Below, in pieces: positions 16,256 through 46,856 of a stretch of DNA of 47,581 nucleotides (its first letter is position 1; every line of letters starts with the position of its first letter). Location of the stretch: contig JAHDCS010000012.1 of assembly GCA_020629755.1 (NCBI GenBank), positions 1 through 47,581 of the forward strand, in the 5' to 3' direction. Made by a program: the position numbers and the translations under genes. The notes beneath the pieces were generated by a model that saw only the letters and a program-made list of their open reading frames with translations, had not been told where the DNA came from and made no database searches. Source of the stretch: Flavobacteriales bacterium (GTDB taxonomy: Bacteria; Bacteroidota; Bacteroidia; Flavobacteriales_G; JALEGO01).

Positions 16256-17068
16256 CTAATCTCTCACTACAATTCTTTGAGAAAACACCTGATCTGCAAT
16301 AGTGCCTTTTAGAAAATAGATGCCAGAAGATAGGTTTAGGGGTAATTGCACAGATTGTCCTTCAAGCATTATGTGCTGGGTATCATAGATGCGTTGGCCT
16401 TTTACATCATAAAGTGAAAGATGCGCGTTGCCTTCAAGGGGTGTTTTAATCGTAATTTGTTCTGTACTACTTAAAGGGTTTGGATACACCTGAATATTGG
16501 GTTTATTTAACAGATCAGGAGTGCCAACCAAAGCAGCTTCTTGCACTGTGGTTGAGCCTAAAGTCACTTGATCGCCGGCTGTGGTGCCATTTCCGTTACC
16601 GGCATTGGTAGCCGCATAAAAAGTGACCTCACCTGTTCCTTCAGCAGGAGCAACCCAATCAACCGTCCACGCATTTAAAGAGGTGCTAGAACCTTTATGG
16701 GTAGCATACTGGCCATTGTCTTGAATTTGAACATCGGTATTGGCCATAAATTCGCCTGCGGTATTACCAGCGGCATCTTTAGCAGTGATTTGAAAGCCAT
16801 TTTCTTGACCATTTGCACCATTGGTAATGGTAATTGAATAAGTGTTTCCGGGCGTGTATAAATCACCGGTTTGAAGATCGTGAGTAATGATCGTATTATT
16901 TGTGCTGGGCGAGCCCGTATGGCACTGGGTACAATTATTTTCACCAGGCGCTCCTGTTTTGCCGACTGGCGCTCCAGAGCTGAAGGCTTGTACGTTGTTG
17001 TCATAAAAAGTAAATCCAAGTACAGCAACAGAAGCAGCACTCGCAGAAAGAAGGAGATATTTAATCAT
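16256..17068 (-). CDS. T9SS-sorted protein with CxxCH motif (Reeler-like, choice-of-anchor V type)
   Basis: 270 aa with a signal peptide (first 25-30 residues). Right after it comes GAPGENNCTQCHTGSPS, a single CxxCH of the kind that binds heme c, typical of the exported choice-of-anchor V / Reeler-like group. Residues about 60-175 are an all-beta domain (TYSITITNGANGQENGFQI). Residues about 190-270 are a type A T9SS C-terminal sorting domain: QVYPNPLSS, LSLYDVKGQRIYD, LSSGIYFLKGTI, ending QRIVVRD. It should cross the outer membrane by type IX secretion and be attached to the surface or released. It lies 37 bp downstream of the M42 peptidase gene and is closed by a strong terminator. Heme binding is inferred from one motif only. 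Confidence 0.8.
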   Translation of the reverse strand: MIKYLLLSASAASVAVLGFTFYDNNVQAFSSGAPVGKTGAPGENNCTQCHTGSPSTNNTIITHDLQTGDLYTPGNTYSITITNGANGQENGFQITAKDAAGNTAGEFMANTDVQIQDNGQYATHKGSSTSLNAWTVDWVAPAEGTGEVTFYAATNAGNGNGTTAGDQVTLGSTTVQEAALVGTPDLLNKPNIQVYPNPLSSTEQITIKTPLEGNAHLSLYDVKGQRIYDTQHIMLEGQSVQLPLNLSSGIYFLKGTIADQVFSQRIVVRD

Positions 17069-23282: not shown

Positions 23283-23584
23283 AATTTTATTCTTTAAAAA
23301 CTTGTTTTTATAAAATTTATTTTGTTTTATATAGATATAACTTTAAACTACACTATTTAGAATGCTTATATTTTTATTTTTTTCACTCTTTTTCGGTACC
23401 ATAATTTTTTCGAATTCTTTACTGTTCTTGTCTAGAACACATGCCTTGCGCCATCAGGGCCCTTCTTTTTTCTTTTCGTATTGTTGTTGAGTTTAGTTTA
23501 TCCCGCTTAGCATACGTCTATAAGGGGTGGTGCAAAAAATATTTTTTTGTACATTTGTGAGCTTATCATTTTGAAGGTTAAAAA
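23283..23584. other. 302-bp intergenic leader upstream of the TonB-dependent receptor
   Basis: No convincing gene. It holds an AT-rich stretch, the 13-mer TTAGAATGCTTAT (23357-23369, also at 40325-40337), pyrimidine-rich tracts, an inverted repeat TGTTCT-5-AGAACA (23423-23439) and the -7 box at 23550. A 52-codon frame without start features (23405-23560) crosses it but ends over the promoter and is probably chance. Confidence 0.6.
23550..23557 (+). promoter_or_regulatory. -7 promoter box for the envelope module
   Basis: TACATTTG matches TAnnTTTG exactly and ends 27 bp before the ATG at 23585. It probably drives the receptor, the giant protein and the PorV-like gene as one transcript, because the two following gaps are about 20 bp. 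Confidence 0.6.
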
Positions 23585-26500
23585 ATGTTAAGAAGTATCA
23601 ATAATTTAAAAAACAACATGCGCAACAATATTCTAAAAATCTTTTTCTTAAGTGTTTTTGTATTTGGGGGGATGTTTTCTCTTACCGCTCAAGTCGGACA
23701 GGGTGCTATAAAAGGAAAGGTTACTGATAAAGAAACCGGAGAAACTATTCCATTTGCTACTATTGCCGTAAAATCAAAAGGCAATATAGTAACGGGTGCA
23801 CAGACTGATTTTGACGGAAAATTTAATATAAAGCCCCTTCAGCCTGGTGTATATGATTTAGAGGCTAGCTTTGTGGGGTACCAGACTATTGTAATTTCAG
23901 GAGTACTGATAAAATCAGACAAAACAACCTTTCAGGATTTTAAACTTTCGATTCAAACCGAAGTCTTAGAAGCAGTTGAAGTAATTAGTTATACCGTTCC
24001 ACTGATTGATAAAGATAACACGGTAGCTGGTGAAACGGTTACTAGAGAAGACATTCAGAATTTACCAGGTCGAGGCGCAACAGATGTGGCAAAAACAGTA
24101 GGGGGTGTTTACTCTAAAGATGATGGTTCAAACGAATTAAATGCAAGAGGCGCGCGTTCAGATGCTAACTTTGTCTACATTGATGGGGTTAAGGTAAGAG
24201 CGGGGTCTTCTTTGCCTAAAGCTGCGCTTGAACAAGTGTCAGTTATTACAGGTGGTGTGCCAGCACAATACGGTGATGTAACCGGTGCCGTAGTGAGTAT
24301 TACCACAAGAGGAGCGGCAAGAGAATACTCTGGCGGAATCGATTATTTAACATCAGGGTATAAAGTCGACGACGGTAAAGTGGTAGGGATGGATGCGATG
24401 GGTTATAACCTATTAGAATTTAATGCAACTGGTCCGCTGATCTGGAAAAAAGATACAGCAGGCAATAAAAAAGACCCCATCTTAGGATTTTTCTTAGCGG
24501 GTAATGTATCACATATTGTAGACCCTTCACCATCTATCATTGGTACCTGGAAGGTGAAAGACGATGTAAGAGATTGGTTGTTCGACAATCCATTGAGGTT
24601 TAACCCAGACGGAGGAGGTACATTTTTAAATGAAGAATTTTTACGCCAGAATGATTTTGAGAAAACCCGTACGCGTTTAAATGTTGAAAGACAAGCCTTA
24701 AACTTAAATGCTAAGCTAGATTTTAATATTTCAAAAAATACCACCTTAACTTTTGGAGGTGCGGCTGATGTCAATGATAGAAACGATGATTTTTACAGAG
24801 ACAGACAAAACAGTGTGTTTGGCTCATATTCGTATTCGTTGTTTAACGCACACCACAATCCGAACGTAAACAATCAAACCTACAGAGGATATGCGCGTTT
24901 AACCCAAAGATTTGGCTCGTCGGCAGATACATCTAGAGCGTCAAAAATTAAGAATGCCTATTATTCAATTCAGGCCGATTATCAAATTACATCAACGCGT
25001 TTGCAAGATGAAAACTTAAAAGATAATTTGTTTGGCTATGGCTATTACGGTAAGTTTAGAACCTACCAATCTAGAGACTATGACGGAGGGCAAGATTCAC
25101 TAACTGGTGTATTCGGACTTATTCAAACTACCTTTGTTGATACACTGGTAACCTATGAGCCTGATTATAACTATAATGCCAATGGGGCCTCTATTACCCA
25201 AGGGTTTTATAATTTATTTGGTTTTGGCGGATTTGACGGCGACGGTAATCCTATTGTAGATCCTATTTTGGCGGGCGAAAACTTAAGAAACCTCAATAAT
25301 ATATCTTTGGCAGGGGGGCTAAGAAATGGCGATGCGCCAAGAGATATTTACGGCATGTGGCGTTCACCAGCCCTTGTATACAATGAGTACGCCCTTAGAA
25401 ATAGAGAGCAATACCGTTTAAATGCCATAGGTTCAGCCGATATAGGAGACCATTCTATCACCTTAGGGTTTGAATATGAGCAAAGGGTAGACCGAAACTT
25501 TAGTGTTGCACCTAGAGGTCTTTGGACTATTGGCCGCCAGCTAACCAACAGACATATTGCTAATTTAGATTTTTCTAATCCTAATATTATACAAACAGGA
25601 ACCTTCCCTATTGTTGAATACGAAAGACTTAATGGAGCGCCTGGTGAATACTCAGGAGACGATCCGCAAAGTTTCTTTGACTTTAACCTAAGAAATAAAT
25701 TAGGCTTAAATCCTGATGGGGTCGATTATGTCGATTTTGATTCTTATGATCCTACGATGTATGCGCTCGATATGTTTAGCGCAGATGAGTTGTTAAACAA
25801 CGGTAATAATCTAGTGACTTACTATGGTTACGATCATACAGGTAAAAGAGTAAACTCATACAATACAGGGTGGCTCAATGATTTTTTTAATGCCAAAGAT
25901 CAGTACGGAAACTTTACTAGACCCATTGCCCCATTTCAGCCTATATATGTGGCGGGTTTCATTCAAGATAAATTCTCATTTGATGATCTAGTATTTAATG
26001 TTGGGGTACGTGTCGATAGATACGATGCCAACCAAAAGGTGTTGATTGATCCGTATGTGATGTTTCCGACCGTGAGAGCAGGCGAAGATTTATCGCAACA
26101 CGGCTTAAGTGGTGTTGAAGTGCCGGGCAATGTAGGCGACGATTATGTTGTGTATGTAGACAATGTGAGCAATCCTACTGAAGTTAAAGGCTATAGAGAT
26201 GGTGATATTTGGTATAATGCTCAGGGTCTAGAAATTCAAGACGCTTCTGTACTTGAAACTTCTTCGGGTAGTGTAGCGCCTTTGTTGGTCGATAAAGATG
26301 TAAAAAGTGGGCAAGAAATCAGAGAAAATTCATTTAGAGATTACAAGCCAAGAACAGCTGTAATGCCTAGAATTTCTTTTTCGTTCCCCATTTCAGATGA
26401 GGCCTTATTTTTTGCACACTACGATGTATTAACCAAAAGGCCAACTACGGGTATTGGTGGTTCAGGTACAAGACTTGACCCAATTGATTATTTCTTTATC

Positions 26501-27424
26501 AATAGCATTGGTAACAATGTGGTGAATAATCCTGATTTGGGCTTAGAACAAACCATTGATTATGCGGTTGGCTTTAAGCAAAAATTAAATAACTTTTCAT
26601 CACTTTCTATTGAAACATTTTATAGAGAGTTTAGAGACTTAGTTCAGGTAATTAATTTAGCCCAAGCCTATCCAAATGGATACATCACTTATGTAAATAG
26701 AGATTTTGGTACTGTTAAAGGCTTAACGGTGTCTTATGATTTAAGACGTATGGGCAACATTAGAGGTCGCGTGGCCTACACTATGCAGTTTGCAGAAGGA
26801 ACGGGCTCTTCAGCAACAGGCGGTTTGGGTCTAGCAAGAGCGGGTAAGCCTAATCTTAGAAACTTAATTCCTTTATCTTTTGATCAGCGGCATACCTTAA
26901 TCGCCAATATCGATTATAGATATGGCCAAGGCAAAGACTACAATGGCCCAGAAGGCTTCATGCGTCACATATTTGAAAATTTTGGAGCAAATGCCGTTAT
27001 AAATGTAGGTTCAGGCACCCCTTACAGTGGCCAAAAAAACGTGACTCAAACAGGTCTTTTTTCAGGAAATGCTGCGCTTTTAGACGGGCAATTAAATGGC
27101 GCCAGATTGCCTTGGAATTTTTCTCTGAATTTAGGGCTTGATAAAGGCTTTATGATTGGTAAAACCGAAGAGAAAAAAGGAGTTCCATTAACGCTTTATT
27201 TTCAGATCGAAAACTTGTTAAACACTCTAAACATAGCAAATGTATATAGAGTAACAGGTAATCCGGACGACGATGGCTTTTTAACTGCAGAAGAGTATCA
27301 AAACTTTATTGCATCTCAAAATTCAGAACAAAGCTTTAGAGAGTTATACGGATTTAAAGTAAACCGTGGGTCAAATTTCACTCTTCCTAGAAGAGTAAAA
27401 CTCGGAATTAGAATTGATTTTTAA
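23585..27424 (+). CDS. TonB-dependent outer-membrane receptor with carboxypeptidase-like N-domain
   Basis: 1279 aa. The signal peptide ends near SLTAQ (about residue 35); an internal ATG at 23618 is an alternative start. Residues about 40-125 are a CarboxypepD_reg-like beta-sandwich (GAIKGKVTDKETGETIPFA, FNIKPLQPGVYDLEASFVGY). The plug follows (about 140-235): ETVTREDIQNLPGRGA, NARGARSDANFVYIDGVKV, VITGGVPAQYGDVTGAVVSI. The rest is a 22-strand-type barrel ending RVKLGIRIDF with a terminal Phe. It moves a substrate across the outer membrane with TonB energy. It is not a SusC pair member: no SusD follows. Instead a giant exported protein and a PorV-like barrel follow, so it may be a gate or assembly platform for that protein. 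Confidence 0.92.
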   Translation: MLRSINNLKNNMRNNILKIFFLSVFVFGGMFSLTAQVGQGAIKGKVTDKETGETIPFATIAVKSKGNIVTGAQTDFDGKFNIKPLQPGVYDLEASFVGYQTIVISGVLIKSDKTTFQDFKLSIQTEVLEAVEVISYTVPLIDKDNTVAGETVTREDIQNLPGRGATDVAKTVGGVYSKDDGSNELNARGARSDANFVYIDGVKVRAGSSLPKAALEQVSVITGGVPAQYGDVTGAVVSITTRGAAREYSGGIDYLTSGYKVDDGKVVGMDAMGYNLLEFNATGPLIWKKDTAGNKKDPILGFFLAGNVSHIVDPSPSIIGTWKVKDDVRDWLFDNPLRFNPDGGGTFLNEEFLRQNDFEKTRTRLNVERQALNLNAKLDFNISKNTTLTFGGAADVNDRNDDFYRDRQNSVFGSYSYSLFNAHHNPNVNNQTYRGYARLTQRFGSSADTSRASKIKNAYYSIQADYQITSTRLQDENLKDNLFGYGYYGKFRTYQSRDYDGGQDSLTGVFGLIQTTFVDTLVTYEPDYNYNANGASITQGFYNLFGFGGFDGDGNPIVDPILAGENLRNLNNISLAGGLRNGDAPRDIYGMWRSPALVYNEYALRNREQYRLNAIGSADIGDHSITLGFEYEQRVDRNFSVAPRGLWTIGRQLTNRHIANLDFSNPNIIQTGTFPIVEYERLNGAPGEYSGDDPQSFFDFNLRNKLGLNPDGVDYVDFDSYDPTMYALDMFSADELLNNGNNLVTYYGYDHTGKRVNSYNTGWLNDFFNAKDQYGNFTRPIAPFQPIYVAGFIQDKFSFDDLVFNVGVRVDRYDANQKVLIDPYVMFPTVRAGEDLSQHGLSGVEVPGNVGDDYVVYVDNVSNPTEVKGYRDGDIWYNAQGLEIQDASVLETSSGSVAPLLVDKDVKSGQEIRENSFRDYKPRTAVMPRISFSFPISDEALFFAHYDVLTKRPTTGIGGSGTRLDPIDYFFINSIGNNVVNNPDLGLEQTIDYAVGFKQKLNNFSSLSIETFYREFRDLVQVINLAQAYPNGYITYVNRDFGTVKGLTVSYDLRRMGNIRGRVAYTMQFAEGTGSSATGGLGLARAGKPNLRNLIPLSFDQRHTLIANIDYRYGQGKDYNGPEGFMRHIFENFGANAVINVGSGTPYSGQKNVTQTGLFSGNAALLDGQLNGARLPWNFSLNLGLDKGFMIGKTEEKKGVPLTLYFQIENLLNTLNIANVYRVTGNPDDDGFLTAEEYQNFIASQNSEQSFRELYGFKVNRGSNFTLPRRVKLGIRIDF

Positions 27425-27446
27425 CCATAATTATTTAGCAACCCAA

Positions 27447-30400
27447 ATGATGAATCAACAAACAGTAATATATAACGCATTCGCAAAATACATGTTAACA
27501 CTTCTATTGAGTGTATCTTGTTTCAATGCCTTTGCCTATATCTACATTGGCAATAATGGATCTTCTTCAAATAACAATACACCTTTACAGTCAGGTAAGT
27601 TGTCAGCGAATTGTCTGCCTCCTTCTACCTCTGAAGATTTAGACATCAATAATGTAAAGGCACTGATACATACCGGAGGCGATATGTGGTGGGATTTGCA
27701 ACAACAAGCAAAATATGAAATACCGAAAGGGTCTGGTAAAACCTCTCTTTTTGCAGGTTCTTTATGGTTAGGAGGGGTAGATGTGTCTAACCAATTAAAG
27801 GTGGCTGCCAATAGATTTAGAGGCAATGGTATTGATTTTTGGACGGGTCCTTTAAGAACTGATAATTCAGAAACCTCTGCTGACGTCTGTCAATTGTATG
27901 ACCGCTTCTTTAAAATTACAAAACAAGAGGTGCAAGAGTTTGTAGCATGGCAAAATGCTGGGGCTTTTGATCAAGGCAATAATACAACCACTCAACAAGA
28001 TAATTTTCCGGGATATGCTGTGCCGCAAAGCATACAAGAATGGCCAGGAAATTATTCTGGGCCTAATGCCAACAATTACGATTTTAACTTAGCGCCTTAC
28101 GTTGATTTAAACGGAAATGGGGTGTACGATTGGCAAAATGGCGATTACCCCGCCTATGATTTAACGGGTGGTGCAGAATGTAATACCGAAGACTTAAATC
28201 AGGTGTATGGCGATCAGACTTTGTGGTGGGTATTTAACGACAACGGTAACATTCACACTGAATCAGGCTCATCTCAGGCTATTGGTATGGAAATTAGAGC
28301 TCAGGCCTTTGCTTTTGCTACTAACGACGAAGTCAATAACATGACCTTTTACAATTACCAGTTGATTAACCGCTCTACCTTTACCTTAACCGATGCTTAT
28401 TTTGGCTTTTTTGTTGATCCTGATTTGGGTGGGTTTCAAGACGATTATGTAGGGTGTGATGTGTCAAGAGGTCTTGGGTTTTGCTACAACGGAGATGATT
28501 ATGATGATAATGCAGGTGGTGCACTTGGCTATTTAGATAAGCCACCGGCCATTGGCGTTGATTTCTTTCAAGGGCCTTTTCAAGATGCAGATGGTATTGA
28601 TAACGATTGGGGTACTGGCTTTAACCAGGCTGTTGAAGGCAATGGAGTAGGCTATAGTGATGGTATAGCAGATAACGAGCGTTTTGGAATGAGAAGGTTT
28701 TTATACTTTAACAATGCTGGAGGAGGTATTAATAATGACCCAGCGACTGCTTCAGATTATTACAATTTTATGAGAGGCCTCTGGAAAAACTCAACGCCAA
28801 TGGTACATGGAGGTGACGGAACTATTGGTGGATGTCCTACGGCAGATTTTTCATGTAATCCTACAGCATTTATGTTTCCTGGTAATTCAGATACTCAAAA
28901 CTGGGGTACAGGCCAATCAGAAGCACTCTGGACAGAAGTTACTGCCGGTAATACGTCGGGAGACCGTAGATTTACGCAATCCGCGGGTCCTTTTACTTTA
29001 GCGCCGGGGGCAAAGAATTACATCACAGCTGGTGTAGTATGGGCACAGGCTGTAACTGGCGGGGCAGAGGCATCAGTTTTAGCACTCATTGAAGCAGACC
29101 AAAAAACACAGGCAGCTTTTGATAATTGTTTTCAGATTTTAGAAGGGCCTTATGCTCCTGAGCTTACCTTTCAAGAGCTCGACCAAGAATTGGTGGTATT
29201 TATTTCTAACCCAGCTTCTTCAAACAATGCCAATGAGGCCTACAATCGTAAAGATCCGACGATTCAAGCGCCAGATTCTATTCTTTTAACGTCTTTGGCA
29301 ACTGGTACAGTAGATACCAATGGATATACATATGTTTATGATAATACCTATACGTATGAGTTAGATTCTATGCTCATGATAGATACCGTTATTGTAAGTA
29401 TAGATCCGACGCCGCCAGCAGATACTGTTTTATATTACGATAGTAATTACGTAGTAACTTTAGATTCTACTTTACAATCAAATGTTATTGTAGATTCGTT
29501 TCCGAATTTAACCCCAGGTATAGCTACGCAAAACACCTATATTCAATTATCAAATGCTGATAAAGAGGCCTATACCAATTATAAGTTTCAGGGCTATAAG
29601 GTGTATCAAGTCAAAAACCCATCTGTTTCTGTGGTTGATTTAAACGATGCAGATTTAGCGCGTTTGGTATTTCAGTGCGATATTCAAGACAATATTATTG
29701 AGGTCATTAATTATGAATTTGATCAGACCATTCAACAAAGTGTGCCTAAACTTAAAGTAGATGGCGAAAACCTAGGAATTTCTCATAGTTTTCAGTTAAC
29801 TACAGATGAATTTGCGACCGGGAATAACACTTTAGTCAATCATAAAGAAGTTTATTATATGGCAGTGGCTTATGCGGTTAATAATTCTGAGTATACAGAA
29901 TACGATCCTACAGACCCTACAAAACTAGACGGGCAAAAGTTACCCTATATCGAAAGCGGAAAAGCAGCAGATGGCGCTGGGGTTAAGGTATTTACTGCCA
30001 TCCCTCATAAAGTAGAAGTAGAGTCTGATGGGTTAATTCAGAATTCAAATTACGGCGACGAGGTTGAGCTTACTAAACTTGAAGGCCGTGGTAATGGTAA
30101 TCGTGAGATTAGACTTACCCAAGAAACAGAAAATGCCATTATGAGCGGCGCACCTTGGCTTGTTGAGTCTGTAACCTATCAAGAAGGTTATACGCCAGTA
30201 TCTATTAAGGTAGTAGATCCTTTAAATGTGCCATCTGGTGATTTTGTATTTAAAATTTTAGAAGAAGATTCTGTGCAAAACTTTGATTTACAAGACGCTA
30301 CATGGGAGCTTACCTTTAACGGAACAGATACGCAGATTGTGTATACCTCAGACTTAGCTATTCAAATTGGCAATGAGCAACTCTTGCCTGATGTAGGGTT

Positions 30401-32171
30401 ATCTATATACATTCAACAACAAGAAAAGACGGTTGACGGATTACAAGATAATGAAGACCTAAATTATCTAAACGGTTTAATAGGAGGATCTATTGAATTT
30501 TCAGATCCTAACAATCAGTGGCTATCTGCCGTGATTGACGAAGATGGAACATCAACTGGCACCAATTGGATTCGTTCAGGTACCTCTGATGTAGAAGACG
30601 ATCCGCAGACTACAGATTTTAATGAATCTACCTTATCTGATCATTATACCGGAAGTACCACAAAATCTTGGGTAGATCCTGAGCAGATCTACGAAAATAT
30701 TTTGGGGGGATCTTGGGCACCGTTTAAATTATGTGCAATTGAACCTGAAGGACCTGTGCCTTCGATACCTACGTCTTTAACATTTGCCTCTAATGCCCAT
30801 TTGTTAAATAATCCTATTGAGTTTTTAAATAACGTAGACATAGTATTTACTTCAGATAAATCAAAGTGGACGCGTTGCCCGGTGTTTGAAATGCAGAGAG
30901 ACCCCAGTGTGGCACAAAATGGAGCTAATAAAGGCTTTTTACGTCGCTCACCTTCGTTAGACAAGAATGGTAATCCGTATGATATTTCAGGCTTAACCGG
31001 AAATTGGTGGGAGAATGTATCTTCTTCTACAGATGAGAATGCCGCCAACTATATTGGTGGATATGGCATGAGTTGGTTTCCGGGCTATGCCATAGATCAA
31101 GAAACAGGAGAACGTTTAAATATGGCCTTTGGCGAAGATTCATGGTTTTTCTCTGAAAACGGAAACGATATGATTTGGAACCCGACCTCTAAATTAACCG
31201 AAGGGCCCTTTAATGAGCCTAGACTAGGTGGCAAGCATTTTATATATGTATTCAGAAACAATGTGGTAGAAGAGAGAAAAGTACAAGAGGTTTCTATCAT
31301 TAATGCGAATAACTTCTCTATTAACAAAGACAGACAAATGCCGCACTATGATGCAGGGGCTTATATCTTCAATAAGCTTTCTTCAATTGAGACACTTTCT
31401 ATCAATAGTGCTGTGAACTCTGTAGAATTTAAAAGTGTATTTAAGGCGGCTACTTGGTGTAACTTTCCTTTATTATCACCTGGCTACGAGCTGAGATCTA
31501 TGGCTGATGGTATTGTACCAAGCGATGTTAGAGTGAGATTACGCGTCAGAAAGCCTTATGGCAATCATAAAACCACAACTAATTTATTTGACGTGGGCGA
31601 TCAGCTGCCACAAAACGCAGGCTATTATGTGCTTAGAGGGCCTGTTATTTACGATAGCATAACCTATAACCATGGTAGTTATTTTGATGGCGTGTCTGGT
31701 ACTTCATTTGCTTTACCAACCTCAGGAAATACCAATGATTATGACAATGTAGATAATGTTGCTTTAGTAGAAAATTATGGCCGTCCGCTCTATACCTTTA
31801 ATACAGACAAGTATGCCACGCTGTTAAGTGATAATCCTACAGCGGTGGATGGATTAGATATTATTAACGTAGTACCGAACCCTTACTATGCCTATTCAGA
31901 ATATGAGCAAGACAGGTTAGACAATAGAATTAAAATCACCAACCTGCCAATTAACTGTACGGTAAGTATTTATACCTCAAGTGGGGTATTGGTGAGAACC
32001 TTAACCAAAGACGATCCGTCTGTAACCTCTCTACAATGGGATTTAAAAAACAATGCAAACATTACCGTATCTAGTGGTATTTACATTATTCATGTAGAAG
32101 CACCAGGCATTGGAGAGCGTATTATTAAATGGTTCGGGATGATGAGACCAATTGATTTAGATTCATTCTAA
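27447..32171 (+). CDS. Giant exported protein with FlgD-like / T9SS-like C-terminus
   Basis: 1574 aa from the ATG at 27447 (ATG 27450 is equally possible; a TTG at 27414 overlaps the receptor gene). The signal peptide ends near FNAFA. The N-terminal third has conserved-looking blocks: DINNVKALIHTGGDMWWDL, YEIPKGSGKTSLFAGSLWLGG, the Ca-binding-like DLNGNGVYDWQNGDYP, and several Asp/Asn/Gly-rich loops (DGIDNDWG). The middle part is a low-conservation beta-rich stretch with Thr/Asp/Tyr repeats around residues 610-690. The last 105 residues (from VVPNPYYAYSEYE) resemble a T9SS/FlgD-like Ig domain, with VSIYTSSGVLVRTL and SSGIYIIHV, but extend past the usual end to KWFGMMRPIDLDSF. It should be a surface or secreted protein handled by type IX secretion. 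Specific function unknown. Confidence 0.8.
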   Translation: MMNQQTVIYNAFAKYMLTLLLSVSCFNAFAYIYIGNNGSSSNNNTPLQSGKLSANCLPPSTSEDLDINNVKALIHTGGDMWWDLQQQAKYEIPKGSGKTSLFAGSLWLGGVDVSNQLKVAANRFRGNGIDFWTGPLRTDNSETSADVCQLYDRFFKITKQEVQEFVAWQNAGAFDQGNNTTTQQDNFPGYAVPQSIQEWPGNYSGPNANNYDFNLAPYVDLNGNGVYDWQNGDYPAYDLTGGAECNTEDLNQVYGDQTLWWVFNDNGNIHTESGSSQAIGMEIRAQAFAFATNDEVNNMTFYNYQLINRSTFTLTDAYFGFFVDPDLGGFQDDYVGCDVSRGLGFCYNGDDYDDNAGGALGYLDKPPAIGVDFFQGPFQDADGIDNDWGTGFNQAVEGNGVGYSDGIADNERFGMRRFLYFNNAGGGINNDPATASDYYNFMRGLWKNSTPMVHGGDGTIGGCPTADFSCNPTAFMFPGNSDTQNWGTGQSEALWTEVTAGNTSGDRRFTQSAGPFTLAPGAKNYITAGVVWAQAVTGGAEASVLALIEADQKTQAAFDNCFQILEGPYAPELTFQELDQELVVFISNPASSNNANEAYNRKDPTIQAPDSILLTSLATGTVDTNGYTYVYDNTYTYELDSMLMIDTVIVSIDPTPPADTVLYYDSNYVVTLDSTLQSNVIVDSFPNLTPGIATQNTYIQLSNADKEAYTNYKFQGYKVYQVKNPSVSVVDLNDADLARLVFQCDIQDNIIEVINYEFDQTIQQSVPKLKVDGENLGISHSFQLTTDEFATGNNTLVNHKEVYYMAVAYAVNNSEYTEYDPTDPTKLDGQKLPYIESGKAADGAGVKVFTAIPHKVEVESDGLIQNSNYGDEVELTKLEGRGNGNREIRLTQETENAIMSGAPWLVESVTYQEGYTPVSIKVVDPLNVPSGDFVFKILEEDSVQNFDLQDATWELTFNGTDTQIVYTSDLAIQIGNEQLLPDVGLSIYIQQQEKTVDGLQDNEDLNYLNGLIGGSIEFSDPNNQWLSAVIDEDGTSTGTNWIRSGTSDVEDDPQTTDFNESTLSDHYTGSTTKSWVDPEQIYENILGGSWAPFKLCAIEPEGPVPSIPTSLTFASNAHLLNNPIEFLNNVDIVFTSDKSKWTRCPVFEMQRDPSVAQNGANKGFLRRSPSLDKNGNPYDISGLTGNWWENVSSSTDENAANYIGGYGMSWFPGYAIDQETGERLNMAFGEDSWFFSENGNDMIWNPTSKLTEGPFNEPRLGGKHFIYVFRNNVVEERKVQEVSIINANNFSINKDRQMPHYDAGAYIFNKLSSIETLSINSAVNSVEFKSVFKAATWCNFPLLSPGYELRSMADGIVPSDVRVRLRVRKPYGNHKTTTNLFDVGDQLPQNAGYYVLRGPVIYDSITYNHGSYFDGVSGTSFALPTSGNTNDYDNVDNVALVENYGRPLYTFNTDKYATLLSDNPTAVDGLDIINVVPNPYYAYSEYEQDRLDNRIKITNLPINCTVSIYTSSGVLVRTLTKDDPSVTSLQWDLKNNANITVSSGIYIIHVEAPGIGERIIKWFGMMRPIDLDSF

Positions 32172-32190
32172 TTTGAAAAGCATAAAGAAG

Positions 32191-33285
32191 ATGAGATATA
32201 AAAATTATATAAGTTATTGTGTAGGATTATTTTTAATAAGCGCGTTTGCTTATGCAGGTAATCAAGACAGGGTTGGCGAAGCAGGGGCATCTGAATTAAA
32301 GATTAACCCTTGGGCGTCTAGTTCAGGATTGGCAGGAGCTAACTCAGCAAGTATTGTGGGGATAGATGCCGCCTATTTAAATGTAGCAGGTCTTGCGTTT
32401 ACCAATTCAACTGAAGTTGCTTTTGGGTACAAAGATTGGTTGTCTGGATCAGGCATTGGGTTTAGTACGCTTGGTCTTGGCCAGCGAGTAGGTGAATCTT
32501 CTGTGTTTGGCTTAACAATCAGCGCCATGACCTTTGGTCAGATAGATATTACAACGGTAAATTTACCAGATGGCGGAGCGGGTACTTATTCGCCTACATT
32601 TTTAAATATTGGGCTTTCTTATGCCAAGGCATTTTCAAATAGCATTTATGGCGGAATTACCCTAAGAAGTGTATCTGAGCAAATTGCAAACTCTTCAGCT
32701 TCAGGATTGTCATTAGATGTAGGCATTCGTTATGTCACAGGTAAATTTGATAAAACTAAATTCGGGATCTCCCTTAAAAACATTGGTCCAAAAATGAAGT
32801 TTTCTGGCGATGGCTTTTCTGAAAAAGTCATTTTTAATGATATTGAATATACCTTAAAACAACGTTCTCAAGGTTTTGAATTGCCAGCGCTTTTGAATAT
32901 TGGCATTGCCCATGACTTTCATTTGGGTACAGCAATTGTCAAAGACAGTACCAAAAAAGATTCAGAAAAAGCAAAACCAGCCAATATACTGACTGCAAAT
33001 CTTAATTTTTTATCTAACTCATTTGGTAAAGACCAAGTGATTGCAGGATTAGAGTATGCGTATAAAAACATTTTTAAGTTGCGTGTTGGTTATGCCTATG
33101 AAAACGGCTCTAGTTTTGATCAGAACGCCTCTGACTTAACAAATGCTTACATGGGCCCTGCGGGTGGCATAGGATTTAATATCCCCCTAGGAAAGGCAGA
33201 TAGGTATTTGGGCATTGATTATGCCTTTAGACCTACGGTTCGTTTTTCTGGAACCCATAGTGCAAGTTTAAGAATTAACCTATAA
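32191..33285 (+). CDS. PorV/PorQ-family outer-membrane protein
   Basis: 364 aa from the ATG at 32191; a TTG at 32173 directly after the preceding stop would add KSIKK and spoil the signal peptide. The signal ends AFAYAG. The mature start GNQDRVGEAGASELKINPWASSSGLAGANSA is typical of PorV/PorQ barrels, given here in parts: GEAGASELKINPWA and GLAGANSASIVGIDA. About 14 amphipathic beta strands follow, ending SASLRINL. PorV shuttles T9SS cargo between translocon and attachment complex. Being third in this operon, right after a giant exported protein, suggests a dedicated shuttle or anchor for it. It lacks the features of PorU or other T9SS core genes. Confidence 0.82.
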   Translation: MRYKNYISYCVGLFLISAFAYAGNQDRVGEAGASELKINPWASSSGLAGANSASIVGIDAAYLNVAGLAFTNSTEVAFGYKDWLSGSGIGFSTLGLGQRVGESSVFGLTISAMTFGQIDITTVNLPDGGAGTYSPTFLNIGLSYAKAFSNSIYGGITLRSVSEQIANSSASGLSLDVGIRYVTGKFDKTKFGISLKNIGPKMKFSGDGFSEKVIFNDIEYTLKQRSQGFELPALLNIGIAHDFHLGTAIVKDSTKKDSEKAKPANILTANLNFLSNSFGKDQVIAGLEYAYKNIFKLRVGYAYENGSSFDQNASDLTNAYMGPAGGIGFNIPLGKADRYLGIDYAFRPTVRFSGTHSASLRINL

Positions 33286-33366
33286 TTCTATTTTTTAAGC
33301 ACAACACTAATTTATAGCAGTAATTACTTTTAGGGCCAGATTGATATCTGAGCGTTTTCCCTATAA

Positions 33367-33374
33367 TAAATTTG
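33367..33374 (+). promoter_or_regulatory. -7 promoter box for greA
   Basis: TAAATTTG matches TAnnTTTG exactly and ends five bases before the ATG at 33380. The mRNA would be leaderless or nearly so. A longer greA frame from 33341 would put the box inside the gene. Confidence 0.55.
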
Positions 33375-33379
33375 TAAAT

Positions 33380-33853
33380 ATGAGCAATGTAGTATATGTC
33401 ACAGAAGAAGGCTTACAAAAGCTAAGAGATGAAGTTCGGCACTTAGAAACGGTCGAACGTCCAAAAATATCTGAACAAATTGCCACAGCAAGAGACAAAG
33501 GCGATTTATCAGAAAACGCTGAGTATGATGCAGCCAAAGAAGCACAAGGCCTTTTAGAAATGAAAATATCTAAGCTCAATGAAAAAATTGCCGCAGCACG
33601 TATTATAGATGAGTCTCAATTAGACAGCTCTAAGGTTTTGATTTTATCTAAGGTTAAAATTAAAAATCTAAAGAACAATGCCGTAATGGAGTACACCATT
33701 GTGCCTGAAAATGAAGCCAATTTAAAAGAAAAGAAAATTTCAGTAGAGTCGCCAATCAGCAAAGGATTATTAGGTAAAAAAACAGGAGAAAAAGCCAAAG
33801 TAAGTACGCCTGCAGGAGACATTGATTTTGAGGTGTTAGAGATTAGCCGTTAA
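33380..33853 (+). CDS. greA: Transcription elongation factor GreA
   Basis: 157 aa, the standard length. It enters the RNA polymerase secondary channel and triggers cleavage of backtracked RNA. The N-terminal coiled coil starts YVTEEGLQKLRDEVRHLE and carries the catalytic tip ARDKGDLSENAEYDAAKE with the key Asp and Glu (about residues 41-44). The C-terminal FKBP-like domain ends EVLEIS. The ATG at 33380 gives the usual start; the -7 box sits five bases upstream. The repeat-protein gene follows after about 70 bp. Confidence 0.96.
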   Translation: MSNVVYVTEEGLQKLRDEVRHLETVERPKISEQIATARDKGDLSENAEYDAAKEAQGLLEMKISKLNEKIAAARIIDESQLDSSKVLILSKVKIKNLKNNAVMEYTIVPENEANLKEKKISVESPISKGLLGKKTGEKAKVSTPAGDIDFEVLEISR

Positions 33854-33927
33854 ATAAAATTGGTTAAAAGTTAAGTGTTTGATTTCTTGGTATGGTTATT
33901 GCACGTTTTTTTCACAAACAGTTAACT

Positions 33928-34365
33928 ATGCAAAAACACATCGCTTTAATTTGTACTTATTTTTTTATTTCGTTCACTTATGCACAACAAAGAGTAGAAC
34001 TTGTTACCTCTGGAATAGCAGATGTAGAAATAGTAGTGGTTAATTCAGGCATTAGTGATTATACGGTTCGGTTTGTTGACAATGGATCTATCGCAGACTT
34101 ATCTGTGGGGATAACCACTTTTAGATCGCGCGCAGATTATATAGTTTCAGATGCCTTTGAAGAGCAGACTATTGAAGTAAAATCATCTGGTTTTGGAGAT
34201 TATAAATTTGAACTTGTAAATTCAGGTATTTCAGATGTAACACTTTGTATAGATTGTGATGCATCTCCTGATGTTTGGATTTATCTTGACGATAGAACCG
34301 CTTTGCTTGAAAGAGAAATTGTAGCTTTATTGTATAAAGACATCATCAAAAAAGCAGAAGAATAA
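33928..34365 (+). CDS. Small exported protein with 12-13-residue beta repeats (DUF6150-like)
   Basis: 145 aa from the ATG at 33928, which gives a good signal peptide (MQKHIALICTYFFISFTYAQ). The mature part has five or six short repeats, each a strand plus a turn: SGIADVEIVVV, SGISDYTVRFV, GSIADLSV, SGFGDYKFELV, SGISDVTLCI. The pattern is S/N-G-x-A/S-D-x-x-hydrophobic, one per 12-13 residues, which fits a stacked-strand (solenoid-like) or small propeller fold and resembles the DUF6150-type repeat. After the repeats come CIDCD (a Cys pair) and a charged C-terminal helix of about 20 residues. Function unknown. It ends nine bases before the HIT gene and is likely cotranscribed with it. Confidence 0.65.
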   Translation: MQKHIALICTYFFISFTYAQQRVELVTSGIADVEIVVVNSGISDYTVRFVDNGSIADLSVGITTFRSRADYIVSDAFEEQTIEVKSSGFGDYKFELVNSGISDVTLCIDCDASPDVWIYLDDRTALLEREIVALLYKDIIKKAEE

Positions 34366-34374
34366 AAAAACGCT

Positions 34375-34773
34375 ATGCCGTCTATATTTTCAAAAATTAT
34401 TTCAGGAGACATACCCTGTTATAAAATAGCAGAAACAGAACATTGCTTGGCTTTTTTAGATATTTTTCCAGTGCAAAGAGGACATGTATTGGTAATCCCC
34501 AAAAAAGAAGTCGATCATATTTTTGATTTAGAAGACGAGTTGTTTTCAGAATTACATCTGTTTTCAAAAAAGGTAGCCAAGGCCATTAAACAAGCCTTTA
34601 GCTGTGAAAAAATAGGCGTTAGTGTCATTGGTTTAGAAGTGCCTCATGCACACATTCATTTAATGCCCATAGATCAGCTTTCTGATATGAATTTTACAAA
34701 GCCTAAACTTAAATTACAGCCTCAAGAGCTTAGTGAGATTGCCACGCAAATAAGGGCCTATTATACCCCATAG
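34375..34773 (+). CDS. HIT-family nucleotide hydrolase
   Basis: 132 aa, usual length. HIT proteins hydrolyse nucleoside phosphoramidates or dinucleotides in the cytoplasm. The start MPSIFSKIISGDIPCYKI is family-typical, followed by FLDIFPVQRGHVLVIPK. The catalytic histidine triad HAHIHLMP lies at about residues 89-96. Its substrate cannot be read from the sequence. The N-terminal zinc-site Cys of some HIT proteins is reduced to one Cys here (IPCYK), with another in EHCLAF. It precedes the asparaginase gene by 23 bp. Confidence 0.93.
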   Translation: MPSIFSKIISGDIPCYKIAETEHCLAFLDIFPVQRGHVLVIPKKEVDHIFDLEDELFSELHLFSKKVAKAIKQAFSCEKIGVSVIGLEVPHAHIHLMPIDQLSDMNFTKPKLKLQPQELSEIATQIRAYYTP

Positions 34774-40471: not shown

Positions 40472-40483
40472 AAAGAATGTCTT

Positions 40484-40491
40484 TACCTTTG
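40484..40491 (+). promoter_or_regulatory. -7 promoter box for murF-alr
   Basis: TACCTTTG, an exact TAnnTTTG match. It lies inside the longest frame (ATG 40477) and six bases before an in-frame TTG (40498), which is therefore the better start. TTAG at 40461-40464 could serve as -33 (19 bp spacing). Confidence 0.55.
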
Positions 40492-40497
40492 TGTATA

Positions 40498-42942
40498 TTG
40501 CATCTTACAGTTTCTGAAATAGCAAACATTTTAAAGGTTCCAACACCTAAAAAACACAAAGAGATTTGTATTGATTCATTTGCGATAGATAGCCGTAAGG
40601 TGCTTATGCCTAAAAGCACCTTGTTTGTGGCGCTCTCTGGTCAAAGAACCAACGGGCATAAGTTTATTGATGCGCTTTATAAGAAGGGATGTCGAGCCTT
40701 TTTAGTTGAGAGATTGCCTCAGAAGCACAAACGCTATAAAGCATCCTTTTTTAAGGTCAACAACACCCTCTTGGCATACCAAACACTTGCCAAGGCTTGG
40801 CGTAAGAATTTTACATTTGATGTGCTGGCCATCACCGGGAGTTCAGGTAAAACCATCGTTAAAGAGTGGCTTTATGAACTTTTACGTGAAGAGTGGTTCG
40901 TGTATAGAAGCCCGCAGAGTTATAATTCTAAAATAGGCGTGCCCTTATCAGTGTTTAGTGCGCGCTCTGTATATGACCTTTCTATTTTTGAAGCCGCTAT
41001 TTCTGAACCAGGAGAAATGAACACTCATGCAGACATTTTGTCTCCAGAGTATGGGATTTTTACTGGAATTGGGCCGGCCCACCAAAGCGAATTTGAGAGC
41101 CTAGATCAAAAAATAAAAGAAAAACTGTTGTTGTTTAAGAGGGTGAAGTGTTTGTTTTTAGGCGCAGATGATCACAGGGTCAATAAGCATTTGCCAAAAG
41201 GGGTGAAAACATTTACCTATAGCTTTAAAGATAAAGGAGCGGCGGTGTATGTAAAAAAGGTGATTAAAAAAGAAAAAAAAGCCAGTATAACGCTGCTTTA
41301 TAAAAACAAATCTTATGTCTTTAGTGTTCCGTTTTCAAGCCAGCCGCTTATTGAAAACGCGATACTCTCCCTTTTGCCTGCCTTTTATTTTAAGTTGCCT
41401 TTTGAAAGTATTTTGCCAAAAACCAAAAGTTTACCAAATGTGCACATGCGATTAGAAGAAAAAATAGCACATGGCGGAGGGGTATTGCTTTCAGATGAGT
41501 ATAATTTAGATCCGGCTTCATTGCCTTTAGCATTTGATCAGTTTAATCAGTTAAGCGAAAAACCCAAAAGACTTTTAGTGCTCTCAGATTACCCAGAGTT
41601 AACAGATTCAGATCAGCAAATACAACTCAATAAATACATAAAGACCTGTCGTTTTACACACATTTGTTTGGTAGGCAAAGGCTTTAAAAAAATCACATTA
41701 CACATCCCCCCAAAAAACATAAGTTATTTTAAACATACAGAAGATCTGCTTAAAAAAATTAATGGGAATGTGTATTTAGGATATGATATTTTAATTAAAG
41801 GATCAAGAAATCACAATCTAGAGCGAGTCACACAACAATTGAGTTTTCAAAAACAGCAAACCACTTATACCATAGATTTAAATGCGCTCGTACATAATTA
41901 CCGATTTTTAAAGCAACTCTCAGGTCAAAAAAAGGTGATGGCTATTATTAAGGCTTTTGGCTATGGCGCTGGTGCGTTTAAAATAGCAAAAGCATTGGCT
42001 GGTCAAAAGGTGGATTATTTTGGTGTAGCCTATATTGACGAAGGAGTTGCGCTTAGAGAAAAGGGCATTCAGACGCCTATTATGGTCATGAACCCAACAC
42101 GTATAGATTTTCAAACCTTATATGATTATAATTTAGAACCTACGCTTCATGATCTTCAGATGCTTGATGCTACATTAATTTGGTGTTCTCAAAATAAAAA
42201 AAAGATCAAAGTACATATTGAATTTGACACAGGCATGCGTAGACTGGGCTTTTCTCTTAGACAATATAAAGAGGTAATTAAGCGCCTAAAGTCTCAAAAG
42301 CGTGTGCAAATTGCCTCTGTGTTTTCTCATCTAGTGGCGAGTGATAAAGAGGAATTTGATGTGTTTTCAAAAAGCCAAAAAAAGCAATTTACAACTATCG
42401 CAAAAGCCTTTGCATTGCATTTTAAATCGTTTGATACACATTTATATAATTCAGCTGCGGTGCAAAGATTCAACTCTAAGAATCCGTTTTCTATGGTGCG
42501 CATAGGTTTAGCCTTGCATGGCATAACGCAATCTGAGTTTTCTACAGATTTAAAGTTAGTGGGCAAGTTAAGAACGACAATATCAAAGGTAACGCGCGTA
42601 AAAAAAGAGGATTCAGTAAGTTATAATAGGTCGTACATCTTTAAAAAGAACACTAAAGTGGCTACCTTGGCCATTGGCTATGCTGATGGCTTACCCAAAA
42701 TCACTGAAAAAAACAATCTTAAGCTCTATATAGAAGATAAACCGTATCCTGTTGTGGGAGATATTTGTATGGATATGTGTATGATTGATATAGGCATAGA
42801 TTCGACCTTAAGTGTAGGAGACCAGGTTGATGTTTTTGTGAATATAAATCAGCTGCAGACGCTATCTAAAAAAGCACAAACGATACCTTATGAGGTTATA
42901 ACAGGTATTTCAAAGAGGGTAAAGCGGGTGTATGTGCACTAG
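40498..42942 (+). CDS. murF-alr: Bifunctional UDP-MurNAc-tripeptide:D-Ala-D-Ala ligase / alanine racemase
   Basis: 814 aa from the TTG at 40498 (MHLTVSEIANILKV, the usual start pattern); the ATG at 40477 would add seven residues. The N-terminal half (to about 440) is MurF: ATP loop AITGSSGKTIVKEWL, SYNSKIGVPLSVF, ISEPGEMNTHADIL and the C-terminal ligase domain. The second half is alanine racemase: PLP Lys in VMAIIKAFGYGAG, EFDTGMRRLGF, SYNRSY with a catalytic Tyr, IGYADGLP. The fusion makes D-Ala and attaches D-Ala-D-Ala to the peptidoglycan precursor; it is a known arrangement in Bacteroidota. The MurF loop has Ser-Ser-Gly where many have Ser-Asn/Thr-Gly. Confidence 0.95.
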   Translation: MHLTVSEIANILKVPTPKKHKEICIDSFAIDSRKVLMPKSTLFVALSGQRTNGHKFIDALYKKGCRAFLVERLPQKHKRYKASFFKVNNTLLAYQTLAKAWRKNFTFDVLAITGSSGKTIVKEWLYELLREEWFVYRSPQSYNSKIGVPLSVFSARSVYDLSIFEAAISEPGEMNTHADILSPEYGIFTGIGPAHQSEFESLDQKIKEKLLLFKRVKCLFLGADDHRVNKHLPKGVKTFTYSFKDKGAAVYVKKVIKKEKKASITLLYKNKSYVFSVPFSSQPLIENAILSLLPAFYFKLPFESILPKTKSLPNVHMRLEEKIAHGGGVLLSDEYNLDPASLPLAFDQFNQLSEKPKRLLVLSDYPELTDSDQQIQLNKYIKTCRFTHICLVGKGFKKITLHIPPKNISYFKHTEDLLKKINGNVYLGYDILIKGSRNHNLERVTQQLSFQKQQTTYTIDLNALVHNYRFLKQLSGQKKVMAIIKAFGYGAGAFKIAKALAGQKVDYFGVAYIDEGVALREKGIQTPIMVMNPTRIDFQTLYDYNLEPTLHDLQMLDATLIWCSQNKKKIKVHIEFDTGMRRLGFSLRQYKEVIKRLKSQKRVQIASVFSHLVASDKEEFDVFSKSQKKQFTTIAKAFALHFKSFDTHLYNSAAVQRFNSKNPFSMVRIGLALHGITQSEFSTDLKLVGKLRTTISKVTRVKKEDSVSYNRSYIFKKNTKVATLAIGYADGLPKITEKNNLKLYIEDKPYPVVGDICMDMCMIDIGIDSTLSVGDQVDVFVNINQLQTLSKKAQTIPYEVITGISKRVKRVYVH

Positions 42943-45287: not shown

Positions 45288-46856
45288 ATGGTACTGAAAT
45301 TAAAAACCCTGTCTTTTACATTTACGTTATGTGCTTTTATCTTAGCTTCATATGGTCTTGGTGCTCAAGAAGTAGTGGATTGGTCGTTTTCTATTGGAGG
45401 AAGGATTGATGATTATGCAGAATCTGTGAAGCAAACATCAGACGGGGGGTTTATTGTTGTGGGGTCTACTAATTCTGATTCAGGAGATTTTGCCGGAAAT
45501 GATTATTACGATGATTACTTTGCTTTAAAACTTAATGCTGAAGGAGAACTTCAATGGAAAAATACTTATGGAGGCTCTAGTTGGGATTTTGCGTACTCTG
45601 TAGTTGAAACAGCAACAGGGAATTTTGTTATTGTGGGTAAGAGTTATTCACAAGACGGAGATGTCTCAGATACCTCAGCTGGTGTTGATATATGGTTGGC
45701 TCATATTTCTTCAACCGGAACTTTGATCGAAGAAAAATCTCTTGGAGGGTCTGGTGAAGATATAGGACATCAAATTATTAATACGGATGATGGGGGATTT
45801 GTGATTGCTGGCTCTACAAGGTCTTTAGATGGAGATTTATCTTCCAATAATGGAAAAAAAGATGTTTTAATAATGAAATTAGATGAAAACATGAATGTGC
45901 AATGGGCTAAAAATTATGGGGGCAGCAATAATGATGTTGCACACGCAGTAAAACAAATAGACAACGAAGGGTACATATTGGCTGGGGTAACGACTTCAAA
46001 TGATTTTGACGTGTCTTCATACAACGGAGAAGACGATATTTGGGTAATCAAACTAGACTCCTTGGGTGAATTGATCTGGGAAAAAAATTACGGCGGAACA
46101 GATGATGATGTAGCATATGATATTGAAGCGAATACTGAAGGGCATTTTTATGTAGTGGGTAGTACAAGGTCAAATGATTTAGACGTTACTGACACATTAG
46201 GAGGTGATGCTGTTTATTGGATGATTAAGATAGATGAAAACGGTAATTTATTATGGGATAAGACCTATATGAATTATGGTTTTGATGAAGCAAAATGCAT
46301 TGAAAAAATCAATGATAATGAGTTTGTTATCAGCGGTGATGGAGCTGGAATCAATTATGGCGGGAATAATTTTTTAGGTTATGGCGGTAACGATTTTTGG
46401 TTAATAGGCGTAGATGGATCAGGAGAAATATTATGGTATCAAAATTATGGAGGGTCTAATACTGACATTATAAACGATATGATTATTACACAAGACCATT
46501 CGGTGGTAATGGTTGGATATTCTAGGTCTGATGATTATGACGTAACAGAAAACTTTGCAGACGATGATGTGTTGGTTTTAAAATTAGAAAGTAGTGTACA
46601 AGTTGGCGTTTATAATCAACAGCCCAAACACATTCTTGAGGTTAACCCCAATCCTTGTTCAGTATTTTTCAACATCAACCCCTTGTCTATTGAGGCTGAA
46701 AATATTCTTATTATTAGTGATATACGAGGCAAGCAAGTCCGTGTTCAAAAGAATATAGGTCCTCAGGTTAATGTCAGTGATTTGGCCCCAGGCATATACA
46801 TGTTAGAGTTACTGAATCAAGAGGAGATTTTCACACAAAAACTAGTTGTTCAATAG
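45288..46856 (+). CDS. T9SS-sorted seven-repeat beta-propeller protein
   Basis: 522 aa with a signal peptide (ending GLGAQ). Residues about 32-440 are seven tandem repeats of 55-60 residues with the consensus W-x-K-x-Y-G-G-S-x-x-D-x-A followed by D/E-G-G-F-x-V-x-G-S/T-T-x-S and D-D-x-W-x-x-K-L/I-D: for example WKNTYGGSSWDFAYSVV and GFIVVGSTNSDSGDF. That fits a seven-bladed propeller. Asp-rich loops may bind calcium. A type A T9SS sorting domain follows (about 450-522): LEVNPNPCSVFFNI, DIRGKQVRV, LAPGIYMLELL, KLVVQ. It should be exposed on or released from the surface. A small inverted repeat ATGCGT-28-ACGCAT (45233-45272) lies before the gene. Confidence 0.85.
   Translation: MVLKLKTLSFTFTLCAFILASYGLGAQEVVDWSFSIGGRIDDYAESVKQTSDGGFIVVGSTNSDSGDFAGNDYYDDYFALKLNAEGELQWKNTYGGSSWDFAYSVVETATGNFVIVGKSYSQDGDVSDTSAGVDIWLAHISSTGTLIEEKSLGGSGEDIGHQIINTDDGGFVIAGSTRSLDGDLSSNNGKKDVLIMKLDENMNVQWAKNYGGSNNDVAHAVKQIDNEGYILAGVTTSNDFDVSSYNGEDDIWVIKLDSLGELIWEKNYGGTDDDVAYDIEANTEGHFYVVGSTRSNDLDVTDTLGGDAVYWMIKIDENGNLLWDKTYMNYGFDEAKCIEKINDNEFVISGDGAGINYGGNNFLGYGGNDFWLIGVDGSGEILWYQNYGGSNTDIINDMIITQDHSVVMVGYSRSDDYDVTENFADDDVLVLKLESSVQVGVYNQQPKHILEVNPNPCSVFFNINPLSIEAENILIISDIRGKQVRVQKNIGPQVNVSDLAPGIYMLELLNQEEIFTQKLVVQ

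Follow-up and report, generated by a model that had tools for sequence, protein, structure and literature searches.

In the type IX secretion system (T9SS), PorU and PorZ are surface proteins whose uncleaved C-terminal domains (CTDs) are held by barrels of the PorV family, PorU by PorV and PorZ by PorQ (PMC5562754), and a review has proposed that cognate PorV-like barrels shield CTDs from cleavage (PMC10202324). Cargos of type B have dedicated PorP/SprF barrels, whereas type A CTDs are all said to be recognised by PorV (PMC12618676). Here we describe a three-gene locus that fits a third case, in which a type-A-like CTD is accompanied by a dedicated PorV-family barrel and also by a TonB-dependent receptor (TBDR). 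The locus lies in a stretch of 47,581 nucleotides (the window) from a Flavobacteriales bacterium (assembly GCA_020629755.1, contig JAHDCS010000012.1). In much of the phylum Bacteroidota the three genes are a real, repeatedly co-inherited unit. We consider it probable that their products make up one outer-membrane complex, in which a giant protein exported by the T9SS is held on the barrel by its CTD and serves the TBDR as a ligand-binding partner or lid. The trio thus looks like an overlooked nutrient-uptake machine. No description of it was found in the open-access literature, although one in a subscription journal or a preprint is possible.

The genes share the forward strand, in the order TBDR, giant, barrel. 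The TBDR (23585–27424) has 1279 residues, comprising a signal peptide, CarboxypepD_reg and plug domains and a barrel. It is followed by the giant, of 1574 residues (27447–32171; first ATG at 27447, stop at 32171), and by a PorV/PorQ-family outer-membrane barrel of 364 residues (32191–33285; ATG at 32191, with an alternative TTG start possible at 32173). The stop-to-ATG gaps are 22 and 19 bp, in agreement with the spacing of about 20 bp given in an earlier reading of the sequence (the original prediction), which had proposed a dedicated surface-export module. A pattern search of the 286 bp upstream located a TAnnTTTG Bacteroidota-type promoter element, TACATTTG, at 23550–23557 on the same strand, 27 bp before the TBDR start codon; this is a match to the consensus and does not imply activity. 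Trios of this kind divide into two subclasses, T1, to which that of the window belongs, and T2.

Homologues of the giant were found in 145 of 296 Bacteroidota genomes, representing 98 of 140 genera, and also in 496 stretches of named contigs. Nearly every giant locus with both flanks carried the trio. A sample of 40 distant loci, which covered about 30 Bacteroidota families, gave 35 complete trios with order and strand conserved; of the other five, two were cut by contig ends (L123 and L148), one had a broken cargo frame (L152) and two were without the trio (L131 and L155). All loci pooled gave 89 complete trios, each with the TBDR 5′ of the giant, and median gaps of 22 and 23 bp. The carriers include the named strain Salibacter halophilus KCTC 52047 (trio at 3982–13501 of L086). 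The original prediction would have fallen if homologues of the giant usually lacked the two neighbours, and the opposite was found. In the near set, the exceptions were contig ends or extra, free-standing giants. These extra copies were considered as a contradiction of the trio and ruled out as such: all 11 genomes checked also hold one strong T1 barrel (357–441 bits), with a complete trio in eight (L072 and L076 among them), while in the other three the C-terminal end of the giant adjoins the barrel at a contig end. One trio (L051) carries the label Candidatus Competibacteraceae (Pseudomonadota) but groups inside Bacteroidota, and its contig is probably mis-binned. In the window the trio is followed (33341–34773) by genes for GreA, a 157-residue protein without assigned family and a HIT protein; GreA and HIT commonly lie downstream of T1 trios in Flavobacteriales loci, which speaks for vertical inheritance.

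The trees of receptor, giant and barrel show an identical T1/T2 split (0 of 63 misplaced, support 1.0). Pairwise tree distances were strongly correlated, at 0.911 for receptor and giant, 0.899 for giant and barrel and 0.905 for receptor and barrel. As a null that preserves species history, the partners of 31 trios from 14 genomes were exchanged within each genome; mean correlations then fell to 0.38–0.42, and none of 1000 shuffles reached the observed values. Part of this co-divergence signal is the T1/T2 split itself, and the correlations within T1 alone (0.86–0.88) and within T2 (0.79–0.90) are not separated from species history. The linkage and tree tests exclude a chance assembly. The module of the original prediction holds in the sense of a TBDR and a giant with a dedicated PorV-family partner, and it is far more general than that reading could see.

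The domains of the receptor scored above the Pfam cut-offs (CarboxypepD_reg 61.5 bits, plug 39 bits; PF13620, PF13715, PF07715), and distant receptors also match the barrel families PF00593 and PF25183. CarboxypepD_reg and plug are what is expected of the receptor of a SusCD pair. The SusD partner (PF07980) is absent, as the original prediction had said of the locus; there is no SusD_RagB match anywhere in the window's genome, and the giant itself has no SusD match in Pfam.

The body of the giant has no domain above cut-off in Pfam or NCBIfam and no sequence relative in the PDB. Its C-terminal end gave sub-cut-off matches to FlgD_ig (20.8 bits) and to the T9SS type A tail (TIGR04183, 16.6 against 23 bits), so by profile (PF18962 or TIGR04183 over the curated cut-off) it is not a type A CTD; PF18962 matched 6 of 54 giant relatives at E ≤ 0.01, and the PorZ profile NF052228, with a cut-off of 260 bits, scored just 23 on the CTD of a single relative. 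The predicted structure gives a different answer. The C-terminal half (29511–32168), which consists of beta-rich domains with the CTD last, was modelled by AlphaFold2 with a pLDDT of 83, and its best Foldseek match in the PDB was PorZ (5m11, E 4e-5). Further matches were RemZ (8gl8_D) and NucA (8glk_D), both chains of SprA–PorV–substrate complexes, as well as PorU (6za2) and FlgD; 8gl8_D matched the CTD with a probability of 1.00 and a TM score of 0.66 on the target. The CTD itself (31929–32138, model strands 807–876) is predicted to be an Ig-like sandwich as in PorZ, PorU and PorV-bound CTDs, and on this model the C-terminal fold is that of T9SS type A, which bears out the FlgD/T9SS-like end noted originally. 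The N-terminal half (residues 48–700 counted from 27444; 27585–29543) was modelled with a pLDDT of 78 and has a folded, beta-rich region up to about residue 600, with a weak likeness in Foldseek to the galactose-mutarotase-type beta-supersandwich of GH15, GH94 and GH116 enzymes. Ca-binding-like loops had also been noted in the original prediction, and Asp/Gly-rich motifs near residues 220–235 are conserved. Inspection of the N-terminus by eye found no lipobox, so the giant needs another anchor.

The barrel belongs to the PorV/PorQ family of NCBIfam (NF033709, 135.8 against 90 bits), as originally proposed, and the profile of its own family matches PorV (6h3i_F, E 8e-26). It scored far below the cut-offs for canonical PorV (NF033710, 66 against 250 bits) and PorQ (NF033711, 62.7 against 220 bits), and had no match to PorV2 (NF052325, cut-off 325) or to PorP/SprF (TIGR03519), the barrels of type B. 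In the barrel tree, canonical PorV forms a separate clade and the T1 barrels form one clade (SH-aLRT 96). The genome of the window encodes canonical PorV (458.6 bits), a PorQ-like protein (205 bits, cut-off 220) and PorV2 (469 bits) elsewhere, and the barrel of the trio is thus a further member of the family, as yet without a name. The PorV2 gene (L165, contig C84, 8975–10042) owes its name to the NF052325 entry "putative type IX sorting system protein PorV2"; the open-access literature yielded no paper on this protein. The same genome has a second T1-type barrel at a contig edge (L166, contig C80, 3–518; 171 residues), which falls within the T1 clade and groups with family f6 barrels. Since the genome yielded no second giant, this gene is either contamination or what assembly has left of a second trio.

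The two subclasses differ in how their cargos end. T1 cargos carry about eight extra residues, present in all 44 compared, which end in F/Y in 37, in L/I in some and in K/R in none. In the window this tail, MMRPIDLDSF, follows the last CTD strand (32139–32168) and was modelled as a short helix. The end of the giant, which the original prediction had seen run on to KWFGMMRPIDLDSF, is conserved; the ends of other T1 cargos include KLAIIQEQQILDRF and KFAVVKKRIQLNVY. T2 cargos have a plain K/R end, for example GVYVYHVDAPEIGEKIGKFAIIK, and the T1-type tail is absent from 19 of 19. One locus initially counted as T1 (L161) has the T2 tail and falls with T2. None of the 10 ordinary type A cargos that were sampled from the window's genome has a T1-type tail either. 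The window itself holds two ordinary T9SS type A cargos with tail-less ends (45288–46856 and 16256–17068), one of them with a Reeler domain. The tail was considered as a requirement for pairing with the neighbouring barrel, and this was ruled out, since T2 cargos pair without it. Of the suggestion that it is a variant sorting signal, what is supported is that the tail is conserved and specific to one subclass.

The giant closely tracks the T9SS. The genome of the window has SprA, about 70 Por_Secre_tail matches, canonical PorV, and the PorQ-like and PorV2 genes. SprA was present in 144 of 145 giant-bearing genomes compared with 229 of 296 overall (Fisher p 3e-22 without phylogenetic correction; most of the SprA-less genomes listed belong to one family), and the single giant-positive genome without it has a weak match (E 6e-5). 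The mechanism we propose is as follows. Sec would take all three proteins to the periplasm, and the SprA translocon would carry the giant to the surface by way of its Ig-like, type-A-like CTD. The neighbour-encoded barrel, rather than the general shuttle PorV, would then take the CTD together with the T1-specific tail, and would retain it in uncleaved form, so that it anchors the giant non-covalently at the surface, in the way that PorQ holds PorZ and PorV holds PorU. The giant would sit over or beside the TBDR as a ligand-binding partner or lid, and the TBDR would import the captured ligand with energy from TonB. Such a complex would resemble SusCD/RagAB, except that its surface partner would be a T9SS cargo on a barrel and not a lipoprotein.

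The part of this mechanism that concerns uptake draws on the T2 loci. In one of these (L199), receptor, cargo and barrel are followed by GH9, GH2 and GH16/malectin genes, with T9SS tails; in another (L212) they are followed by GH16 and GH2. The 25 commonest families in T2 flanks include GH16, GH3, GH2, malectin and LamG, proteins with carbohydrate-binding modules are also present, and 15 of 63 flanking genes have a T9SS tail. The T2 loci look like polysaccharide utilisation loci. Some T2 trios are followed by a protein of about 510 residues (L205, 5370–6923; L206, 5448–7001; L202, 13672–15189), with a PPIC-type prolyl isomerase domain in two of the three, the L202 copy being without a Pfam match; it is possibly a folding helper for the T2 cargo.

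Some genomes carry many trios, and the idea of one special, very large cargo is therefore abandoned. PorV-family genes number four to six in the genomes checked from the window's own class and 8–28 in other classes. Further PorV-family loci taken from these genomes were receptor–cargo–barrel trios in 18 of 20 cases (19 trios), so a cargo-specific PorV-family barrel beside a TBDR is the usual arrangement there.

Several observations weigh against our interpretation. The flanks of T1 trios are housekeeping genes, with no glycoside hydrolases among their 25 commonest families, and the case for uptake by T1 is thus borrowed from the T2 sister by homology only. The best match to the N-terminal half (9ju0) had an E of 2.4e-6 but a TM score of 0.29 and an rmsd of 11 Å, a weak likeness to a carbohydrate-active fold. 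Pairing as such does not depend on the tail, since the tail-less T2 cargos also have a barrel. Moreover, the tail changed in one evolutionary event, so that it is correlated with the barrel clade by a single step only. The numbers of PorV-family and SusD genes were not significantly inversely related (rho −0.33, p 0.10), and the idea that they are mutually exclusive was dropped, being a trend only, with none outside the window's own class.

The housekeeping flanks lend some weight to a reading in which T1 belongs to the core machinery of the envelope or is an assembly associated with the T9SS, such as a second attachment or outer-membrane-biogenesis complex, and only T2 feeds. In addition, most genomes with strong T1 matches have no more than one or two of them, and PorZ and PorU, the nearest solved relatives of the CTD, belong to the attachment complex. 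However, the window's genome has the full T9SS set (SprA, PorV, PorQ-like and PorV2-like proteins) in addition to the trio, and many T9SS-bearing families are without the giant; we regard this role as unlikely. About equally unlikely is that barrel and giant are a shuttle–cargo pair like SprF and SprB, the giant being an adhesin or structural protein and the receptor only co-regulated. Type B cargos and their PorP/SprF barrels follow such a pair logic (PMC12618676, PMC9143113), and the free-standing giants have no receptor beside them. Yet the receptor comes first in every complete trio, in both subclasses, and co-diverges with the giant at r 0.91, whereas a link by co-regulation alone should not have lasted over phylum-wide distances.

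The original prediction had suggested that the receptor could gate or anchor the cargo. With receptor-gated export, a TonB-powered TBDR would move or release the giant across the outer membrane, as for Oar and PopC of Myxococcus, with the barrel only assisting. A TBDR needed for protein secretion has a precedent (PMC6434023), receptor and giant are co-inherited as tightly as giant and barrel, and a distant receptor matches the PF25183 barrel family. The giant, however, is nearly confined to genomes with SprA and its CTD is type-A-like, so that the T9SS route is available to it, and the sister trios lie in catabolic loci with glycoside hydrolases that point to uptake. Receptor-gated export is accordingly less likely than an import complex built by the T9SS, and we hold it improbable. 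Least probable is that nothing special occurs, the giant being a normal PorV-dependent, PorU-cleaved cargo whose adjoining barrel and receptor act elsewhere; the type A-like CTD and the presence of canonical PorV would fit this, but it leaves aside the cargo-specific barrel clade, the matched tail and the co-divergence of the three trees.

If the trio is the T9SS-built import complex that we favour, the T9SS would also build permanent complexes for import in the outer membrane, which would explain the 8–28 PorV-family genes of some genomes and provide a marker by which glycan-uptake loci could be recognised in lineages that lack SusCD. More tentatively, the trio may represent a second, phylum-wide kind of TonB-dependent importer (receptor, T9SS-exported lid and dedicated PorV-family barrel), multiplied in SusCD-poor lineages and situated in polysaccharide-utilisation-like loci missed by SusC/SusD searches, with barrels that read subclass-specific CTD ends; taken as a whole, this wider proposal is possible rather than probable. 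Such reading, if real, would overturn the view of one PorV for all type A CTDs. The T1 and T2 tails would also offer a natural system for studying how CTDs are distinguished and why some stay uncleaved. Elsewhere in the window, an 821-residue fusion (40477–42942) joins a Mur-ligase middle domain to an alanine racemase.

The closest described systems each share part of this arrangement. In PorQ–PorZ and PorV–PorU, an uncleaved Ig-like CTD attaches a large surface protein to a PorV-family barrel (PMC5562754, PMC10202324), and PorZ is the best match to the CTD of the giant; in contrast, the trio pair is encoded with a TBDR, can be multiplied within a genome and has a cargo that is neither PorZ nor PorU. 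The type B pairs SprB–SprF and PG1035–PorP likewise have the barrel encoded directly downstream of its large surface protein, and certain free-standing cargos use one barrel in common (PMC12618676, PMC9143113), but the trio barrel is of the PorV/PorQ and not the PorP/SprF family, and the trio CTD is type A-like. Oar–PopC ties a TBDR to one exported protein (PMC6434023), although no use of a T9SS CTD or a PorV-family barrel is known for PopC, whereas the occurrence of the trio follows SprA. With SusCD/RagAB the trio shares a CarboxypepD_reg-type TBDR with a co-inherited surface partner and, in T2, loci with glycoside hydrolases; it differs in having neither SusD nor a lipoprotein, the putative surface partner being instead a T9SS cargo with a barrel of its own.

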